NCBI GenBank assembly: GCA_002401565.1
Contig: NVTL01000009.1
Span: forward strand, 5,257-30,060
DNA length: 24,804 bases
Origin: Rhodospirillaceae bacterium
Lineage (GTDB): Bacteria > Pseudomonadota > Alphaproteobacteria > Rhodospirillales > Magnetovibrionaceae
Reading direction: 5' to 3'
Shown: positions 4,665 to 18,617 of the stretch, piece after piece
Position numbering within the stretch: position 1 is the first letter of the stretch
How the letters are laid out: every line of letters starts with the position of its first letter
Program-made: the position numbers and the translations under genes
The notes under the pieces: model-generated
Seen by the model: only the letters and a program-made list of their open reading frames with translations
What the model was told of the DNA's origin: nothing
Databases searched by the model: none

Positions 4665-7600
4665 TCACATTTTCAAGGAAGCCGCGGCCTTTATTGCCGG
4701 AGCCAAAGCCGTTTCTAAGTTATCGAGCAAATCGCCAATTTGGTCCATTTTATTTTCGGTTAAGGCGATTTCAAGTTTACTGCTGTGGGTGCACACGTCT
4801 TTGGCGTCTAAAATGCCCGCACTGCCCATCAATGTGTGGGCCAGTCTTGATGCTTCACTATAGTGTTTGTTGTCCACCATTTTCCTCAAATTGGGCATCA
4901 CATCGCCGTAGGCCACATTAAATTTCACCAGAACCTTGTACAAAAGATCTTTTTTACCGTTCAAGCGCTCCAGAGCAATCTCAAGATTAAAAGGCGGCAA
5001 GTGGGCTGGAAGGCATGAAGCCACCGATTTGTCCGCCGGTTCTTTCTGCCCAATCCATTTCAAAATGGTTGCAAACAAAATATCGGGATTAATCGGTTTG
5101 GTGACAAAGTCATTCATGCCGGCGGCAAGCGCCTTGGTGCGCTCCGTCTCCATAGCATGAGCGGTCAAGGCAATAATCGGCAAGGTCCTTTGCCCCAAAT
5201 CATTGCGTATAATTTTGGTCGCCGTGTAGCCATCCATGATCGGCATCTGAACATCCATCAGGACAAGATCAAATTTAAACGTTCTGTTGCCTAAGGCTTG
5301 CACGGCGTCTTCGCCATTGTTGACGGCCGATACGATGGCCCCTTTGTCTTCTAACAATTCACGCGCAATCATCTGGTTGATGTCATTGTCATCCACCAAC
5401 AAAATATGACGGCCGCGCAGGCCATCCAAATTTTGGTGTTTTGGGTCCGTATCTCTGCGGTGCAAATGAGCCTGTTCGCCCTTCACGGCGGCCAAGGCAA
5501 ATGTCGCGGTGAAGAAAAAACAACTGCCTTTGCCCAACGTGCTGACCACGCCAATTTCGCCACCCATCAGTTCCACAAGTTTTTTGGAAATGGCAAGCCC
5601 CAAACCCGAGCCACCATATTTGCGCGTGGTCGAAGCATCGGCTTGAGAAAAGGATTTAAACAAACCGCTCATTTGTTTCGGCGTGAGACCGATGCCGCTG
5701 TCGGTCACTTCAAAACGCAAACAAGCTTCGTTTTTGTTTTGACTTTCCAAGGCCACGGACACGTTCACGTTGCCGTGGTCGGTAAATTTGATGGCATTTC
5801 CGACAAGGTTGGTCAGGGCTTGTCCCAACCGTAAAGGATCGCCCACCAAATTTGTTGGCACATCGTCGGCACACGAAACCTCCACCGACAAACCTTTCTC
5901 TGCAGCCTTGGTTTCGATCAAAGTCGCGAGGCCTTTTAGAACAGTGCCGATTTTAAAATCAACGTGTTCCATATCCAATTTTCCGGCTTCTATTTTTGAA
6001 AAATCGAGGATATCGTTAATCAGCCCTAACAAGGCGTTAGATGAAAAATCTATTTTTTCCAAATAGTCCTGTTGTTTTTCATCAAGTTTGGTTTTTAACA
6101 TTAAATGCGACAAACCAATGATGGCCCCGATGGGGGTTCTGATTTCGTGGCTCATGTTGGCGAGGAACTTCCCGCGTGCTTTGTTGGCTTGTTCTGCCGA
6201 TTGTCTGGACACCTCTAACTCTTCATTCGACAATGCATTTTCCAACATAATCGAAATCTGATCGGACATGTGCGTTAACACTTCGACGTCTTCGGGGGTG
6301 TATTGCTTGAAGGTGCCCAGAATGATAATGCCAAGGGTTTTACCTTTCGACAGCATCGGCAGCACCAGTAATTCTTTGGGATGATGTTTGCTGAGACCCA
6401 AATCGATGGTGGGCGCGGCGTCTTCGGGCAGGTCCTGTATATGGCGCACAGTTTGATCGGCGGCAACTTGTGCCGGAAGGGAATCGCGCAAACCCACAGA
6501 GCTCATCGACGCGGCACTGACACCGTGAAAAACAAAGGGGTACACAGCCTGCTCTGTTTCTTCCAACAGATAAATACCGCCAATTTTTGACTCGCTCAGA
6601 TCAACAACCCGGTCCAAAGCTTTCTGCAGCAAATCGCGGGGATCAAGCGTGGTGATCAGCAACGATGTTAACTCATGAAACTTCCGGATTTTTTCCAGAT
6701 AAGCCAAAGCCGCTAAATTTTGTTCAATTTGGACTTCAAGCTTGCCGCCATGTTCGGCCAGTTTTTCTTCTGCTTTTTGGCGTTCGTTGATTTCAAGTTT
6801 CAGGCTTTGCTCTGAATTTTTAAGCTTTCGGTATAGTTTTGCGACATACGTTAAAAGCCCGGCCATAAACGTGAACGAAATGGTAAAGGCCACAATCCAG
6901 CGCCAATATTCTTCAAACAACATGGACAAAGACACGCGGCCAAATTCACGAAACGGGCCGATGCGCAGATTTTGCATCAACGTGCGAATGGGTTGGTAAT
7001 TTAAAGGAACCGTCCACCCCGCATTGTTACCCGCCTGTGCGGCCGGATCGGTGGCCTGCATTTCCAACAAAGCAATTGCGACTTTTTGGGCGACATCATC
7101 CGGCGTATGGGCCAGTTTTGCCATGGGCCATTCTGGCACCAGCAGGGTGCTGATTTTATAGGGAAAGCTTTCAATGCCTTGACCGTATCCGGTGCCGATG
7201 ACCTTAAAATCATCCAGATTAATTTTGCCTTCTGCGGCCATGCGTTCCAGGGTGTCGGTGCGCACGGTGCCCGCGTCGACTTCACCATTGCCCACGGCAA
7301 AAACAACCGCGTCATGTTTGCTGCGAAAAACCAAGGCCTCAAAATCGGCATAGGGGTCAATGCCATTTTTTTTGAGTTCGAACCACGCCGCCTGAAAACC
7401 ACCCAGAGAATTTTCCTTCACTGCCATAAACGAAGTGATGGTTTTTAAGTCTGCGATGGAGTGAATATCATTGCGGCTGGCTTTGACAAGGATCACGCCG
7501 CCAAAAACCGTCAACGCACGCCCGTCGGGGCCACGGTTTTTTAACGTCGCCAAACGGCTGGTGCCGTACAGGGTTTCCATTTCCACGTAAATAGAGGGGT

Positions 7601-7877
7601 TCACCAGCAAAAAATCGACGTCACCGCCCGCGACCTTTGGCGTAATTTCGTCAAAGCCCAAAGGCACCAATTCGATTGTATACCCCTCGATTTTTTGGCT
7701 GAGAAAGTCGGCCGTGGGGGCCCATTGTTTAAAGGCTTGTTGTTCGCCACGTTTCGCCAATACGCCCAGTTTTAAGACTTTATCCGCCGCAAAACTGTCC
7801 GCAGAAAAGCCCATGACCAGCATCAGGCTCAACAGCCCAATGGCGATACGAAAGCCCTTATACAAAATGCCCCTCAT
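4665..7877 (-). CDS. Membrane hybrid histidine kinase with PhnD-like periplasmic sensor, GAF, HisKA/HATPase, receiver and HPt domains
   Basis: The 1070-residue protein begins with a signal peptide (about 1-30). Next is a periplasmic-binding domain of the phosphonate/phosphite PhnD type (about 33-305, with [25 protein letters not shown] and [13 protein letters not shown]). One membrane helix follows (about 327-346), then a coiled coil (352-400) and a GAF-like domain (400-550). The HisKA domain carries H577 in NMSHEIRTP; the ATPase domain has NLVGNAIKF and the G boxes DSGIG and [10 protein letters not shown]. The receiver has D829/D830 and D875 in LMDVQMP. The C-terminal HPt domain has H1014 in [11 protein letters not shown]. 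All key residues for a His-Asp-His relay are present. The ligand is unknown: PhnD-like sensors are not always phosphonate sensors. msrA lies upstream and a receiver protein downstream. Confidence 0.93.
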
Positions 7878-8569: not shown

Positions 8570-9382
8570 ATGCGTTTTTCCTGCTTTATTTTGGTCCTGT
8601 TTTATAGCGTTTCTTGGGGAGCCCAAGCCGCGTCTTCCCCCCCAAACCTGCGCTCCAGCCTTGATAAGGCGGCGCACAACATCGTGTGTTTGGGCTGGGC
8701 CGATCTTCAAGGCACCCCACGTTCTATACAATTTAGTTCGCCAAAAAAAGATTGCAAAAAACCAACCTCATATAAAAGGCCCGCACTGTTTGTTAAATGG
8801 CGAAAGGATCAGAGAGCCCAATACGTCGACGCCTTGGTCCAAGATGAACAGGGGACTTATACGTCCATTTGGCATGCGACGCTCAGCGCTCCACATTTTA
8901 AAACCATCAATGCCATTAAGTTGCGAAGGTTTAAAGACCAGCTTGAATTAGACATTGTGATCCATCAAACCGCCATGCCATCGGCGCCGCGTGAAGGCTC
9001 ACAATCAGGCAAAACAAGCTCTTTTCGTCCGGGTCCTCCGTTAGAGCGCCGTTTTGTTTTTTTTGAACACGGGTATCTGTTGGCCCCTAAATCATGTGCA
9101 GAGCAAACATCACCAACGCCCTTGGTCTGTCTTAAAAGGTATCGCGCGCACCTTGAAAAATTTTGGGTCAAAAAACAACAAGCCTCTTGCCCTGACCAAA
9201 CCGCACGCAAACCAGATCAGCCCGCAACCTATTGCCAAACCCACGTTTATACAGATGATGAACGACAAGCCGCCCTGCGCGCGGGCCTTAAACCGTTCAC
9301 AGGCAGCTTGTGGGTGCGGCGTTATCTGCGCTGTGAAATCAATTGGCTCAAAACCCAACTGTTGGCCCCAGACTGCCCGTAA
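8570..9382 (+). CDS. Hypothetical secreted cysteine-containing protein
   Basis: I do not recognise this 270-residue protein. It starts with a clear signal peptide (MRFSCFILVLFYSVSWGAQA, cleavage near residue 20), so it is probably periplasmic or secreted. The mature part is basic and has several cysteines (IVCLGW, KKDCKK, KSCAEQ, LVCLKR, ASCPDQ, TYCQTH, LRCEIN, APDCP), an even number that would suit disulfides. There is a proline/serine-rich linker around residues 140-155. It is transcribed divergently from msrA and stands alone. A TATACT at 8523-8528 could be a -10 box, but no good -35 accompanies it. The signal peptide and sustained coding character make it a likely real gene. Confidence 0.75.
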   Translation: MRFSCFILVLFYSVSWGAQAASSPPNLRSSLDKAAHNIVCLGWADLQGTPRSIQFSSPKKDCKKPTSYKRPALFVKWRKDQRAQYVDALVQDEQGTYTSIWHATLSAPHFKTINAIKLRRFKDQLELDIVIHQTAMPSAPREGSQSGKTSSFRPGPPLERRFVFFEHGYLLAPKSCAEQTSPTPLVCLKRYRAHLEKFWVKKQQASCPDQTARKPDQPATYCQTHVYTDDERQAALRAGLKPFTGSLWVRRYLRCEINWLKTQLLAPDCP

Positions 9383-9399
9383 AAATTACCTCCCTTAAG

Positions 9400-9435
9400 A
9401 AATAAAACCCCGGACGCGATTGCTCGCCTCCGGGG
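9400..9435 (-). terminator. Intrinsic terminator facing the minus strand
   Basis: The hairpin pairs CCCCGGA (9408-9414) with TCCGGGG (9429-9435) and, after one C/C mismatch, GCGA (9416-9419) with TCGC (9424-9427) around a 4-nt loop. On the minus strand it is followed by TTTTATTTC; on the plus strand it is followed by CCTTGGG, not a T run. It therefore terminates minus-strand transcription best, though it lies only 25 bp past the stop of the 8570-9382 gene and may also slow plus-strand transcripts. Confidence 0.75.
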
Positions 9436-9452
9436 CCTTGGGATTGTGCTGT

Positions 9453-9468
9453 GGTGCAACAACAACCC
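9453..9468 (+). repeat. Direct repeat copy 1 (GGTGCAACAACAACCC)
   Basis: This 16-bp sequence is repeated perfectly at 9730-9745, 277 bp downstream and in the same orientation. This copy lies inside the candidate small RNA, so the RNA carries its complement. The bases that follow (ATGAGC here, ATGGAGC in copy 2) are also similar, which suggests a duplicated urtA leader. Confidence 0.85.
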
Positions 9469-9544
9469 CATGATGAGCCGAAACTCACCGGGTATAGTTT
9501 TTGCGGTCTTTGCATTCGAAGTCAAGACACGGAAAACATTAAGC

Positions 9545-9602
9545 TATTTCTGCCTAATATTTAGACACAGAATATTTATTGCTGAATAAATAGGCAGGAA
9601 TA
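9545..9602. repeat. Long imperfect inverted repeat upstream of the urtA sigma54 promoter
   Basis: Arms of 12 nt pair with one mismatch: TATTTCTGCCTA (9545-9556) with TAGGCAGGAATA (9591-9602). The AT-rich centre contains AATATTTA twice (9556-9563 and 9571-9578). The centre is about 155 bp before the predicted transcript start, a usual distance for enhancer-binding activators of sigma54. It does not match the GCAC-N7-GTGC pattern typical of NtrC sites. Confidence 0.4.
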
Positions 9603-9702: not shown

Positions 9703-9718
9703 TGGCACGCTCTTTGCA
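9703..9718 (+). promoter_or_regulatory. Sigma54 (-24/-12) promoter of the urt-ure operon
   Basis: TGGCACGCTCTTTGCA matches the sigma54 consensus fully, with the invariant GG (9704-9705) and GC (9716-9717) exactly ten bases apart. The predicted transcript start is about 9729, giving a leader of about 37 nt with GGAG at 9751-9754 before the urtA ATG. The position, immediately before a urea-uptake and urease operon, agrees with nitrogen-limitation control through an NtrC-type activator. Confidence 0.88.
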
Positions 9719-9729
9719 TTTATGGCGAC

Positions 9730-9745
9730 GGTGCAACAACAACCC
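9730..9745 (+). repeat. Direct repeat copy 2, at the predicted 5' end of urtA mRNA
   Basis: This is the second copy of the 16-bp repeat (first at 9453-9468). It begins at about nucleotide +2 of the sigma54-dependent transcript and ends five bases before the urtA Shine-Dalgarno sequence. It is the predicted pairing target of the candidate small RNA at 9400-9490. Confidence 0.8.
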
Positions 9746-9765
9746 TTTATGGAGCGTATTGAAAA

Positions 9766-11049
9766 ATGAAATACACTATTCGTACTCTGATTGGCGCAGG
9801 CGTACTTGCGACAACAACAGCCCTTTCCGGCATGGCACAGGCGGCCGAAACCATCAAAATCGGCGTCTTGCATTCTTTGTCCGGAACCATGGCGATTTCG
9901 GAAACAACACTTAAAGACACCGTGTTGATGATGATCGAAGAACAAAATAAAAAAGGCGGCCTCTTGGGCAAACAGCTTGAAGCCGTGGTCGTTGACCCTG
10001 CGTCGAACTGGCCTTTGTTTGCGGAAAAAACCCGTGAATTGATTTCCAAAAATAAGGTTGATGTCATTTTCGGCGCTTGGACTTCGGTTTCTCGTAAATC
10101 GCTCTTGCCTGTGATCGAAGAATTGAACGGCATGCTGTTTTACCCCGTTCAATACGAAGGCGAAGAAAGCTCGCGCAACGTTTTTTACACCGGGGCAGCC
10201 CCGAACCAACAAGCCATTCCCGCGGTTAATTATTTGTTGAGCGAAGACGGCGGCAAAGCCGAACGCATTATCTTATTGGGAACAGATTATGTGTATCCTC
10301 GGACCACCAACAAAATTCTGCGTTCTTACTTGAACAGCAAAGGCATTTCCGATGCGGACATCATGGAAAACTACACTCCGTTTGGCCATTCTGATTGGCA
10401 AACCATTGTTGCCGACGTAAAGAAATTCGCGTCCCAAGGCAAAAAGACCGCCGTGGTTTCCACCATCAACGGTGATGCCAACGTGCCTTTTTATAAAGAA
10501 CTCGCAAACCAAGGCATCAAAGCCGAAGACATTCCCGTGATCGCATTTTCCGTTGGTGAAGAAGAACTCGCCGGATTGGACACGGGCCCCTTGGTTGGTC
10601 ACTTGGCTGCGTGGAATTATTTCATGAGCGTTGAATCTCCTGAAAACGAAAAATTCATCAGCACGTGGAAAAAATTCATCAAAGACGACAACCGCGTCAC
10701 CAACGATCCAATGGAAGCAACTTACATTGGCTTTAAAATGTGGGGCCAAGCGGTTCAACAAGCCGGCACCACAGACGTTGATGCGGTTCGCCAAGCTATG
10801 TACGGCCAAAAAGTCAAAAACCTGACTGGCGGCATGGCTGTTATGAACACCAACCACCACTTGTCAAAACCTGTTGTCATCGGCGAAATCCAAGACGACG
10901 GTCAGTTTGATGTTGTGTGGGAAACAGACGGCGTTGTCAAAGGCGATGCTTGGTCTGACTTCATTCCCCAAAGCGCAAAGCTAAAATCCGATTGGACCTA
11001 TCCTTGGGCTTGCGGAAATTGTTCTGTGGCTAAATACGCGGCCCAATAA
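9766..11049 (+). CDS. urtA: Urea ABC transporter, periplasmic urea-binding protein UrtA
   Basis: The 427-residue protein has a signal peptide (MKYTIRTLIGAGVLATTTAL..., cleavage near AQA-AE at about 26) and then a type I periplasmic-binding fold. Features typical of UrtA are IKIGVLHSLSGTMAISE, the SNWPLFAEKTRELI block, FGAWTSVSRKSLLPV, NGMLFYPVQYEGEESS and the Cys-containing end WACGNCSV. It captures urea in the periplasm and delivers it to UrtBC. GGAG lies 11 bases before the ATG. It is the first gene after the sigma54 promoter. A strong terminator follows, so it is probably made in excess over the other operon products. Confidence 0.96.
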   Translation: MKYTIRTLIGAGVLATTTALSGMAQAAETIKIGVLHSLSGTMAISETTLKDTVLMMIEEQNKKGGLLGKQLEAVVVDPASNWPLFAEKTRELISKNKVDVIFGAWTSVSRKSLLPVIEELNGMLFYPVQYEGEESSRNVFYTGAAPNQQAIPAVNYLLSEDGGKAERIILLGTDYVYPRTTNKILRSYLNSKGISDADIMENYTPFGHSDWQTIVADVKKFASQGKKTAVVSTINGDANVPFYKELANQGIKAEDIPVIAFSVGEEELAGLDTGPLVGHLAAWNYFMSVESPENEKFISTWKKFIKDDNRVTNDPMEATYIGFKMWGQAVQQAGTTDVDAVRQAMYGQKVKNLTGGMAVMNTNHHLSKPVVIGEIQDDGQFDVVWETDGVVKGDAWSDFIPQSAKLKSDWTYPWACGNCSVAKYAAQ

Positions 11050-13969: not shown

Positions 13970-14721
13970 GCCATACTCAAGAAGTCAAAAGCATTCTTTA
14001 TTTAGATGGCGTGTCGGTCAGTTTTGACGGATTTAAGGCTCTGAACAATCTTAGCCTCTATGTCAACGAAGGCGAAATGCGCGCCATCATCGGACCAAAC
14101 GGTGCGGGCAAAACAACCATGATGGATGTCATCACCGGAAAAACGCGCCCCGATGAAGGCGACGTTATATTTGGTGGTAATGTTGACCTGACCCAATTGG
14201 ACGAAGCCGCCATTGCAAATTTAGGCATCGGTCGAAAATTTCAAAAACCAACGGTGTTTGAAAATCAATCCGTGTTCGACAATTTAGAATTGGCTTTGGC
14301 CGGCAATCGCCGGCCTCATGAAAACTTATTTTTCAAATTGCAATCGGACCAGTTGGATCACATCAACGAAACACTTAAGCAAACTTCATTAGCCATCCAC
14401 CGTAATAAAATTGCCGGGGCTCTTTCCCACGGTCAAAAACAGTGGTTAGAAATCGGCATGCTGCTGATGCAAAAACCCGACTTGTTGTTGGTGGATGAAC
14501 CGGTCGCGGGCATGACCGACGCGGAAACCGCCACCACCGCCGAACTGTTAAAAGACATTGCCAAAACCAGATCCGTTGTGGTGGTTGAACACGATATGGA
14601 CTTTGTCAAAGCGCTGGATTGTCGGGTCAATGTTTTGCACGAAGGTTCGGTATTGGCCGAGGGCAGTTTGGAAAATGTTCAGGCCAATGAACAAGTTATT
14701 GAAGTGTATTTGGGGCGTTAA
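13966..14721 (+). CDS. urtD: Urea ABC transporter ATP-binding protein UrtD
   Basis: This 251-residue LivG-type ATPase energises urea import at the cytoplasmic face of UrtBC. Walker A is GPNGAGKT (43-50), the signature is LSHGQ (153-157), Walker B is LLLVDE (173-178), and the switch His is in VVEHD. The signature has His in place of the common second Gly, which is usual for UrtD. AGGAGG lies ten bases before the ATG, the best Shine-Dalgarno sequence in the operon, and the start overlaps the urtC stop by 4 bp. Confidence 0.96.
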   Translation: MSHTQEVKSILYLDGVSVSFDGFKALNNLSLYVNEGEMRAIIGPNGAGKTTMMDVITGKTRPDEGDVIFGGNVDLTQLDEAAIANLGIGRKFQKPTVFENQSVFDNLELALAGNRRPHENLFFKLQSDQLDHINETLKQTSLAIHRNKIAGALSHGQKQWLEIGMLLMQKPDLLLVDEPVAGMTDAETATTAELLKDIAKTRSVVVVEHDMDFVKALDCRVNVLHEGSVLAEGSLENVQANEQVIEVYLGR

Positions 14722-14725
14722 GAAA

Positions 14726-15421
14726 ATGTTGAACGTACAAGGAATTGATCTTCACTATGGCGCGTCACAAGCTTTGCGGGGCGTAGAGTTATCGGCGGAA
14801 ATTGGTCAGGTGACCTGTATCATGGGGCGAAACGGTGTTGGCAAAACATCACTGCTGCGCGCCATCGTCGGTCAACAAGCCACCAGCGGCGGGACCATCG
14901 AATGGGAAGGCCAAGACATTACAAAACTGAAACCCCATGAACGGGCACGCCGGGGCATTGCTTATGTTCCCCAAGGCCGCGAAATCTTTCCGTTGATGAG
15001 TGTCGAAGAAAATCTGCGCACCGGGTTTGCCCCCTTGCCTAGGTCGTTGCGTCATGTGCCCGACGAAATATTTGAATTGTTTCCAGTACTCAAAGACATG
15101 CTCCACCGCCGAGGCGGAGACCTGTCCGGCGGTCAGCAACAACAGCTGGCCATCGCCCGCGCGTTGGTCACACGGCCACGATTGTTGGTCTTGGACGAAC
15201 CCACCGAAGGCATTCAACCGTCCATCATCAAAGACATCGGGCGGGTCATCGACTTGTTGGCGTCGCGCGGGGACATGGCGGTTTTGTTGGTCGAACAATA
15301 TTTTGAATTTGCCAGAGATTTAGCCGATGCCTATTGCGTAATGGACCGGGGCGAAGTCGTCATGGCCGGAAGCAAAGCTGAAATGGTGGAAGATGATGTC
15401 CGTCGTCACCTCACCGTCTAA
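14726..15421 (+). CDS. urtE: Urea ABC transporter ATP-binding protein UrtE
   Basis: The 231-residue LivF-type ATPase pairs with UrtD. Walker A is GRNGVGKT (34-41), the signature is LSGGQ (134-138), and Walker B is LLVLDEP (154-160), followed by TEGIQPSII, a hallmark of UrtE/LivF. The ATG at 14726 is four bases after the urtD stop and gives the standard family length; an upstream in-frame extension into urtD is rejected. The 3' end overlaps ureD by 29 bases, which ties transporter and urease genes into one transcript. Confidence 0.96.
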   Translation: MLNVQGIDLHYGASQALRGVELSAEIGQVTCIMGRNGVGKTSLLRAIVGQQATSGGTIEWEGQDITKLKPHERARRGIAYVPQGREIFPLMSVEENLRTGFAPLPRSLRHVPDEIFELFPVLKDMLHRRGGDLSGGQQQQLAIARALVTRPRLLVLDEPTEGIQPSIIKDIGRVIDLLASRGDMAVLLVEQYFEFARDLADAYCVMDRGEVVMAGSKAEMVEDDVRRHLTV

Positions 15422-16262
15422 GACCCTCAACAACCAAAGCCAAGGCATGACGGGCGCCGTAAAATTGGCGTTTGCAAACTCTGGTGGAAAAACCCATTTG
15501 GCCGACCTGTATCAGACGTCGCCGTTGCGCGTGCTGTTTCCAAACGCTGCGCAGGACGATATTTTATCAGCCGCCTTGGTCACGACGTCGGGCGGGCTGG
15601 TCGGCGGCGACCGTTTAAGCATTGAGGTTAAACTAGATGCTTATACCAACGTTCAAGTCATCGGCCAAGCCGCCGAAAAAATTTATCGATCCAATGGCCC
15701 AGATACTATTTTTGAGGCCGATTTGACGGTTGGCGAAAATGCATGGCTGGAATGGTTGCCCCAAGAAACCATCGTTTTTGATCAAGCCCGTCTGCGCCGC
15801 AAAACGTCTGTCGATGTTGCCACAGGCGGCACGTTTTTAGGCGCGGAAATATTGGTGTTTGGACGCACCGCCATGGGCGAAAGTTTTGACGCCGGGCTGG
15901 TCCGCGATGCGTGGGACGTTCGCCAAAATGGAAAGTTAGTTTGGCAGGATGCTTTGTATTTATCCGAAGATATTAAATCGATATTAAATCACCCGGCGGG
16001 ATTTGACAGGGCGCGCTGTGCCGCCACCAGTATTTTGGTCTGCGGTGATGCCGGTGATTATTTAGATTTTGTCCGCGCTCTTTTAAGCACGGCCCCCGAT
16101 GGCGTGAACTGTGCCGCGACAGTTACCAACGGCATTCTTGTAACCCGTTGGATGGCCTTAGAAGCTCAAGATTTGCGAAAATGTTTTGGCGAATATTGGG
16201 CGGCGATGCGCCATGAACTTAAAGGTCTTCCCCAAACCATGCCACGACTTTGGCACATGTGA
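15393..16262 (+). CDS. ureD: Urease accessory protein UreD
   Basis: The 289-residue protein is UreD (UreH), a cytoplasmic scaffold that binds apo-urease and, with UreF and UreG, admits nickel. Characteristic blocks are PLRVLFPNA, SGGLVGGDRLSIEV, AAEKIYRSNGP, WLEWLPQETIVFD and GRTAMGE. The start lies within the end of urtE (29-base overlap) with GGTGGAAG before it. A later in-frame ATG at 15447 would remove 18 residues and is possible, because the first residues are not conserved. The last residues overlap nothing; ureA begins 16 bases after. Confidence 0.94.
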   Translation: MMSVVTSPSKTLNNQSQGMTGAVKLAFANSGGKTHLADLYQTSPLRVLFPNAAQDDILSAALVTTSGGLVGGDRLSIEVKLDAYTNVQVIGQAAEKIYRSNGPDTIFEADLTVGENAWLEWLPQETIVFDQARLRRKTSVDVATGGTFLGAEILVFGRTAMGESFDAGLVRDAWDVRQNGKLVWQDALYLSEDIKSILNHPAGFDRARCAATSILVCGDAGDYLDFVRALLSTAPDGVNCAATVTNGILVTRWMALEAQDLRKCFGEYWAAMRHELKGLPQTMPRLWHM

Positions 16263-16907: not shown

Positions 16908-18617
16908 ATGGCCTATTCAATTGACAGACCCTCGTACGCCGCCATGTTCGGCCCCACCAAAGGCGACAAAGTTCGCTTGGCCGATACGGAATTGTTCATC
17001 GAAGTCGAAGAAGACCGCACCACGTACGGCGAAGAAATAAAATTCGGCGGCGGCAAAGTTATTCGTGACGGCATGGGCCAATCCCAATCTTCACGAGCCC
17101 AAGGCGCGGTGGATACCGTCATCACCAACGCCCTGATCGTCGATCATTGGGGCATCATCAAAGCCGACATCGGCATTCGCGGTGGACGCATCGTGGGCAT
17201 TGGCAAGGGGGGCAATCCCGATACTCAACCCGACGTCGACATCATCGTCGGCCCCGGCACCGAAGTCATCGCCGGTGAAGGCCGCATCATCACGGCGGGT
17301 GGCATCGATGCACACATTCATTGGATCTGTCCGCAACTGATCGAAGACGCTTTGCATTCGGGCATCACCACCATGTTGGGCGGCGGCACCGGACCCGCCG
17401 AAGGCACCAACGCCACAACCTGCACGCCCGGACCATGGCATATGAAACGCATGATCCAAGCGGCCGATGGCTTGCCCATGAACTTGGCCTTTTTTGGTAA
17501 GGGTAACGCATCGCGTCCAGATGCATTGTTGGAACAAATCAGCGCCGGAGCCTGTGGCCTTAAACTGCACGAAGATTGGGGCACCACGCCCAGCGCCATC
17601 GACATGTGCTTGACCGTTGCCGAAGACACCGACATTGGTGTGGCTATTCATACCGATACCTTAAACGAGTCCGGCTTTGTCGAAAATACCATCGCGGCAT
17701 TCAAAGGTCGCACCATCCATGCCTTTCATACCGAAGGAGCGGGCGGCGGCCATGCCCCCGACATTATTACGGTGTGCGGCGAACAAAATGTATTGCCGTC
17801 ATCGACCAATCCAACGCGGCCCTATACCGTTAATACCATCGATGAACATTTGGATATGTTGATGGTGTGTCATCATTTGGACAGTCGCATTCCCGAAGAC
17901 ATCGCTTTTGCCGAAAGTCGTATTCGCAAAGAGACCATCGCGGCCGAAGACATCCTTCATGACATCGGTGCTTTTTCCATGATCGCGTCCGACAGCCAGG
18001 CCATGGGCCGTGTTGGCGAAGTGTTGATCCGCACCTGGCAAACCGCTGATAAAATGAAACGTCAACGCGGACGGTTAGCAGAAGAAACCGGCGACAACGA
18101 TAATTTCCGCGTCAAACGTTACATCGCAAAATACACCATTAATCCAGCCCTCACCCACGGCATCGCCAAACATGTGGGATCAATCGAGCCCGGAAAGCTG
18201 GCTGATTTGGTATTGTGGAATCCGGCTTTTTTCGGCGTAAAGCCAGACATGGTGATCAAAAGCGGCATGATAATTTCCGCAGCCATGGGCGATCCCAATG
18301 CGTCGATCCCCACACCTCAACCCGTGCATTACCGAAAAATGTTTGGCGCTTACGGCAAGGCCCTAACACAAACGTCTGTCACCTTTGTCAGTCAAATCGC
18401 TTTGGAAAATGACATTGCCAAACGATACGGCACCAGCAAGGAAATGATCGCCGTTAAGGGGTGTCGCACGGTAAAAAAGGCCGACATGATCCATAACTTT
18501 GCCACACCCAAAATCGAAGTCGATTCCGAAACGTATGAGGTCCGCGCGGACGGTGAATTGTTGACGTGCGAACCCGCCGAAATCCTGCCCATGGCGCAAC
18601 GTTATTTTTTGTTTTAG
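16908..18617 (+). CDS. ureC: Urease alpha (catalytic) subunit UreC
   Basis: The 569-residue catalytic subunit hydrolyses urea to ammonia and carbamate with a dinuclear nickel centre. All key residues are present: the nickel ligands H136 and H138 ([10 protein letters not shown]), carbamylated K219 (GLKLHEDWG), H248 ([12 protein letters not shown]), H274 ([12 protein letters not shown]) and D362 (ASDSQAMG). The flap motif has C321 and H322/H323 (VCHHLDS). Length is standard and no frameshift is seen. The protein should be active once nickel is inserted by UreDEFG. Confidence 0.98.

Follow-up and report, generated by a model that had tools for sequence, protein, structure and literature searches.

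Many bacteria draw on urea as an important source of nitrogen. In Helicobacter, the 5' ureB small RNA (RF02514) acts as an antisense on the urease operon, and IstR-1, a type I antitoxin RNA, is encoded divergently from its target, tisB. Among Alphaproteobacteria, NfeR1 of Sinorhizobium meliloti is described, in the passages of the report that concern it, as acting in trans on ntrBC, which it silences by anti-Shine-Dalgarno seeds, and its promoter bears TGC-N11-GCA, a putative NtrC motif in rhizobia (PMC10746234). Passages of another report place a guanidine-I riboswitch upstream of a gene named urtA in Alcanivorax (PMC9788540), and the single published control of Urt encountered in the literature covered here is the action of PII on the transporter in cyanobacteria. 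Searches of an open-access collection of papers yielded no RNA acting on urt mRNA.

The window, i.e., the whole stretch of DNA analysed (24,804 nucleotides), comes from a Rhodospirillaceae genome of 3.03 Mb in 113 contigs that is 86% complete. It holds a run of urea transporter and urease genes: 3' of the RNA locus, NCBIfam matches identify UrtA (427 aa), UrtB, UrtC, UrtD, UreC, UreE and UreG, Pfam matches add UreA, UreB and UreF, an ABC ATPase (14558-15418) sits in the place of UrtE and the frame in the place of UreD (15393-16259) is without an NCBIfam match. From sequence comparison, we consider it quite probable that the minus strand upstream of urtA encodes a conserved, independently transcribed small RNA of three hairpins that is dedicated to the urt(-ure) mRNA and represses its translation. 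A scan of the whole window found no Rfam 15 family at gathering score at the RNA locus, where E values up to 5 add two far sub-threshold matches only; together with the literature, this agrees with the first-pass annotation, which knew of no described RNA of such a kind for urt-ure operons. The same scan gave no guanidine-I riboswitch match in the window. It did give a 5_ureB_sRNA match at 17064-17349 (minus strand, 103 bits), opposite ureC, which may reflect just conserved urease coding sequence.

In common with IstR-1/tisB, the urt RNA is adjacent to, divergent from and non-overlapping with its predicted target and is perfectly complementary to a long stretch of the target leader. Unlike IstR-1/tisB, it would act on an operon for nutrient transport that has a promoter of sigma54 type, the first product being UrtA and not a small toxic membrane peptide, and its contact lies at +1 plus the Shine-Dalgarno. 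It also differs from cis-encoded antisense RNAs, which lie opposite to their target transcript and overlap it: the RNA (9494-9399) does not overlap the target, which starts near 9730, but lies ~235 nt upstream in the window and 209-243 nt upstream over the 27 loci discussed below. The Helicobacter RNA is likewise antisense to a urease operon, its match in the window lying elsewhere than the RNA locus. With NfeR1, as the cited passages present it (PMC10746234), the urt RNA shares an alphaproteobacterial origin, a connection to nitrogen control and anti-Shine-Dalgarno pairing, but it is encoded beside its target, whereas NfeR1 is described there as trans-acting. The Alcanivorax element, in the passages cited (PMC9788540), is also an RNA before a urtA-named gene, but a riboswitch.

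Table 1. Features of the small RNA locus and the urtA upstream region, with positions in the window
Feature	Position	Strand	Basis or remark
Small RNA	9399..9494	-	covariance-model match; z -7.0; covariation
Stem-loop 1	9472..9489	-	9489-9484 pairs with 9477-9472
Stem-loop 2	9440..9469	-	5' arm 9469-9462, 3' arm 9447-9440
Stem-loop 3 and U-tract, intrinsic terminator	9397..9435	-	sequence, covariation, 3' ends across loci
Candidate sigma70-type -35 box TTGACT of the small RNA	9520..9525	-	poor -10 in the window
Palindrome TGCCTAATATTTAGACA, candidate NtrC-type site	9551..9567		palindrome scan
Second palindrome TGCTGAATAAATAGGCA	9580..9596		palindrome scan
Sigma54-type promoter of urtA	9703..9717	+	TGGCAC-N5-TTGC
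Predicted target of the small RNA	9730..9745	+	first 16 nt of the predicted urtA transcript
urtA Shine-Dalgarno GGAG, second contact	9751..9754	+	3/4 bases paired in the window's duplex
urtA	9766..11049	+	first gene of the urea transporter and urease run; TIGR03407 1.2e-174

The predicted transcript (Table 1) is ~95 nt long, with its 5' end probably near 9490-9494, and the minus strand from 9500 to 9392 has a folding energy of -54 kcal/mol (z = -7.0), equalled by none of 200 shuffles. Both the 5' hairpin and the intrinsic terminator of the first-pass annotation are there, but what it called an unpaired middle folds as a second hairpin, whose 5' arm and loop make up the seed (9468-9453), with UGUUGCACC in the loop region. 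GCUC (9478-9475), in the 3' arm and linker of stem-loop 1, is able to pair with the urtA Shine-Dalgarno. The terminator stem (9435-9429 with 9414-9408, inner pairs 9427-9424 with 9419-9416) is followed by UUUUAUUUCUU, the U-tract reaching 9397; a simple terminator scan did not list it among its results, probably because the stem is interrupted. As sequence features, the compact structure and own terminator of a base-pairing small RNA are thus present. The UUGCA loop has a mean openness of only 0.40 in the RNA of the window (0.30-0.99 over 27 RNAs), and the first 16 nt of the leader have one of 0.63 (0.28-0.85 over 27 loci). To the left of the RNA lie an open frame (8570-9382, plus strand, 270 aa) without a Pfam or NCBIfam match and, at 4665-7877 on the minus strand, a hybrid histidine kinase with phosphonate-binding periplasmic, GAF, receiver and Hpt domains. 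The hairpin was also considered as a plus-strand terminator of the left-hand gene and rejected as such, since no T-run follows it on the plus strand in the window.

In an alignment of 24 RNAs, which was fitted to the structure model, 92.1% of the cells are paired and double changes occur at 24 of the 25 structural pairs. None of 500 shuffles reaches the observed value on any of five structure measures, and sliding the partner by 1-3 columns lowers pairing to 36-55%. RNAalifold, applied to the same alignment, gives an agreeing structure in which 23 of 24 predicted pairs are double-changed. G-U cells exceed A-C cells in the paired columns (70 vs 17), which identifies the minus strand as the RNA strand. 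As judged from these comparisons, the structure of the RNA, its strand, its terminator and its fixed place divergent from urtA are conserved.

The 27 loci with this RNA belong to 26 genomes in 11 groups. A first covariance model built from 6 RNAs (the window's RNA being one of the 6 training rows of the model that matches it) found 20 places in 19 of 297 genomes of the order, and all but one (G057) of these adjoin urtA or a urtA homologue. In 385 genomes of the class there were 5 matches, viz., the window's own, the known one in Nisaea, two of family f97 beside urtA, and G458. With no urtA in their loci, the G057 and G458 matches were discounted as chance hits. Both searches used strict filters that miss weak relatives, so that the counts are lower bounds; G007, G013 and G045, for example, carry the RNA, were missed by the order-wide search and were recovered with a second covariance model. 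Carriers include the cultured strains Magnetovibrio blakemorei MV-1 and Nisaea denitrificans DSM 18348, a Sneathiellales MAG and several Rhodospirillales MAGs; three (G417, G589, G666) lie outside the window's order and are kin at class level only. One genome (G164) has two urtA copies (L139, L150), each with its own adjacent small RNA, and the first bases of the L150 leader have drifted. The model match in G161 (L143) stands beside a diverged urtA homologue whose leader is without the motif, possibly through retargeting or by chance.

The predicted sigma54-dependent start of urtA follows from a GG-N10-GC site (GG 9704-9705, GC 9716-9717) that puts +1 at ~9729-9730, about the first base of GGTGCAACAACAACCC. 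This sequence stands at 9453-9468 and again at 9730-9745 (16/16 identical), and the minus strand at the first place is a perfect 16-nt complement to the urtA transcript start, just as annotated. GCTC (9478-9475) pairs with GAGC (9752-9755) at the Shine-Dalgarno, which is the second contact formerly proposed for GCTCAT. The 15-mer GTGCAACAACAACCC occurs exactly at just two places in its own genome; with up to 2 mismatches it has 24 places, vs 31 for a reversed control. Compensatory changes, named beforehand as a check, are seen in no fewer than four separate groups. Lineage-specific letters common to the seed copy and the leader are GCAATAAC in G046, GCAATAA in three genomes of one family (G045, G181, G214), CTGCAACAACAA in two of a third family (G134, G151), GGTGCAAGACAAC in two of a more distant family (G589, G666) and CAACAATAA in G004. 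At most loci of family f20 the similarity continues through the Shine-Dalgarno, the leader reading CGTAGTGGAG and the copy being identical or having 1-2 changes. Misfits are found at leader positions 1-3 in G004, at the 5' end in G164b, at one base in G203 and after the tenth base in f29. GCAATAAC is also found in three genomes that have the leader only (L087, L091, L122), which indicates that the leader changes independently and that the RNA, where there is one, keeps step with it.

Duplex energies were compared for 27 RNA-leader pairs, a set that leaves out second records of the same contigs, N. nitritireducens (a near copy of N. denitrificans) and G161, whose model match is without complementarity. 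Over the 11 groups, own pairs average -43.2 kcal/mol vs -33.9 when groups are permuted, and the same holds for leader positions +1..+13 alone (-20.2 vs -16.7) and +12..+36 alone (-19.0 vs -15.0), with 0 of 20,000 permutations as good in each case. In 11 of the 27 single genomes the own leader is stronger than every other-group leader; the RNA of the window is bound more strongly by 9 of 21 other-group leaders than by its own, and that of G004 by 17 of 21. Shuffled leaders, the control that had been called for, are all beaten (300 of 300) by the own duplex in 24 of 27 pairs, and in the others 1 (G051), 1 (G151) and 4 (L129) of 300 reach it. The duplex begins at the transcript 5' end and extends to the Shine-Dalgarno, taking in at least three of the four GGAG bases in 25 of 27 pairs (all four in 19) and two of them in G023 and G134. 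Transitions between leader and copy that keep a G-U pair number 39 vs 17 that break it (binomial p 0.002, the rows not being independent; 13.5 vs 7.1 when group-averaged), a bias that may be due in part to the GC-rich (G-rich) RNA stem. At the sequence level, the seed and the anti-Shine-Dalgarno part co-evolve with the urtA leader of the same genome, and the complementarity to a translation initiation region that characterizes base-pairing small RNAs is found here in co-evolving form.

The leader motif has a wider distribution than the RNA. A urtA orthologue at 70% identity or more is present in 22 of 60 genomes, own included (in G006 as a 180-residue piece only; a 69-residue fragment in G003 was left out), and upstream of these lie both RNA and leader motif in 11, the motif alone in 8 (as the variant GGTTCAACAAC in G041) and neither in 3. 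The pattern of a sigma54 site plus GGTGCAAYAAC occurs at 63 loci of the genome collection, of which 34, with the same promoter-motif spacing, are urtA by tblastn; 14 of the 34 have the upstream copy and a model match and 20 do not (L103 being too short to judge). Mesorhizobium, other Rhizobiales and several further Alphaproteobacteria have GGTGCAAYAAC at the urtA +1 without the RNA, and leader-only loci include L068, L086, L096, L099, L114 and L117. The pattern that the first-pass annotation regarded as adverse, i.e., a leader kept without the RNA, is therefore partly borne out (8 of 22 orthologues, 20 of 34 pattern loci); RNA and motif go together in 11 of the 22. Within genus g15 the RNA is present in G051 and absent from G027, which has kept the leader. 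Presence or absence of the RNA requires 10 changes on a 49-row UrtA tree, vs 16.7 when shuffled, and this patchy distribution looks as expected from repeated loss, with gains also possible. The second covariance model, applied to 28 genomes including 21 with the leader only, found no convincing RNA copy elsewhere in the 21; three weak matches in leader-only genomes (G306, G039, G043; E 0.003-0.03) have no urtA within a 3-kb locus. The 11-mer GTTGTTGCACC has 14 places in 11 leader-only genomes, 11 of them the urtA leader itself, and the other 3 show, by eye, no such RNA and are coding-like. Since the motif survives without the RNA, it is not kept solely for the RNA, and so the leader core either has a value of its own (as initial transcribed sequence, protein site or site of another RNA) or outlives the RNA.

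We propose that the RNA is made from a sigma70-type promoter and that its loop UGUUGCACC would nucleate on GGUGCAAC, the free 5' end of the sigma54 transcript. Pairing would then spread into the 5' arm of hairpin 2 and on to the Shine-Dalgarno, where it would block ribosome entry at urtA and destabilise the urt message. The message driven by NtrC and sigma54 would have to rise above a threshold set by the RNA, so that urea uptake would begin only in real nitrogen shortage. A small RNA duplex over the Shine-Dalgarno predicts blocked 30S entry and hence repression, and as the duplex here reaches that site, repression is the predicted outcome. The main rival is that the same RNA and the same pairing have a positive effect, shielding the 5' end of the urt mRNA from pyrophosphohydrolase or RNase. 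It fits a contact that starts at the predicted +1, but the occupation of three or more Shine-Dalgarno bases in nearly all pairs should block initiation, and we hold this outcome to be unlikely.

A genuine RNA with many mRNA targets, of which urtA is merely the one next to it, would sit well with the generic nature of anti-Shine-Dalgarno stretches. The exact 15-mer, however, is confined to the urtA-RNA locus of its own genome, and more than half of the loci with promoter and GGTGCAAYAAC are urtA; a second target family was not found with this pattern in the genome collection, the 29 non-urtA loci being judged by eye. A single sequence recurs in these 29, presumably glutamate synthase, and it looks like an open coding stretch rather than a promoter. 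We regard such a broad role as quite improbable. Very improbable, in our estimate, is that the two copies are direct DNA repeats bound by a regulator, e.g., a looping operator pair, with incidental hairpins. GGTGCA resembles an NtrC half site, and genomes that lack the RNA still conserve the leader copy; but at 27 loci the upstream copy is part of the same RNA structure, complete with covarying helices and a terminator, and the G-U and wobble biases are strand-specific. Moreover, in f27 one change common to both copies breaks the half site (CTGCAAC), in G004 the half site is broken in both copies, differently, and similarity beyond the core follows the own genome too.

As to how the repressing RNA would itself be controlled, TTGAC stands 27-40 nt upstream of it in 19 of 27 loci, and whole-promoter scores are in the top 5% of shuffles at 3 of 27, the window's being matched by 36 of 200. 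In 22 of 27 loci the interval separating the two promoters holds palindromes of the form TG..TAA...TTA..CA (at least 8/10), and in 15 of 27 a palindrome ends 133-136 and/or 161-164 nt before the urtA +1, both counts being without a shuffle control. Those of the window begin 57 and 86 nt upstream of the RNA 5' end. The AT-rich palindrome pair may be an NtrC-type enhancer between divergent promoters that serves both directions; this reading of one enhancer with two outputs arises from its position at ~-162 and ~-133 from the urtA +1 and just upstream of the small RNA promoter too. On this more speculative view, which we hold to be less likely than not, NtrC would both switch on the sigma54 urt message and adjust, probably downwards, the divergent RNA that silences it. 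A single intergenic cassette would then form a complete nitrogen switch in Alphaproteobacteria, one repeatedly lost in evolution with its target site left in place.

Control of Urt would gain a translational level from such a dedicated RNA, encoded beside its target and found in more than a single alphaproteobacterial order. The RNA would also show an antitoxin-like geometry serving nutrient economy, and would give a naturally replicated case of RNA-RNA co-evolution.
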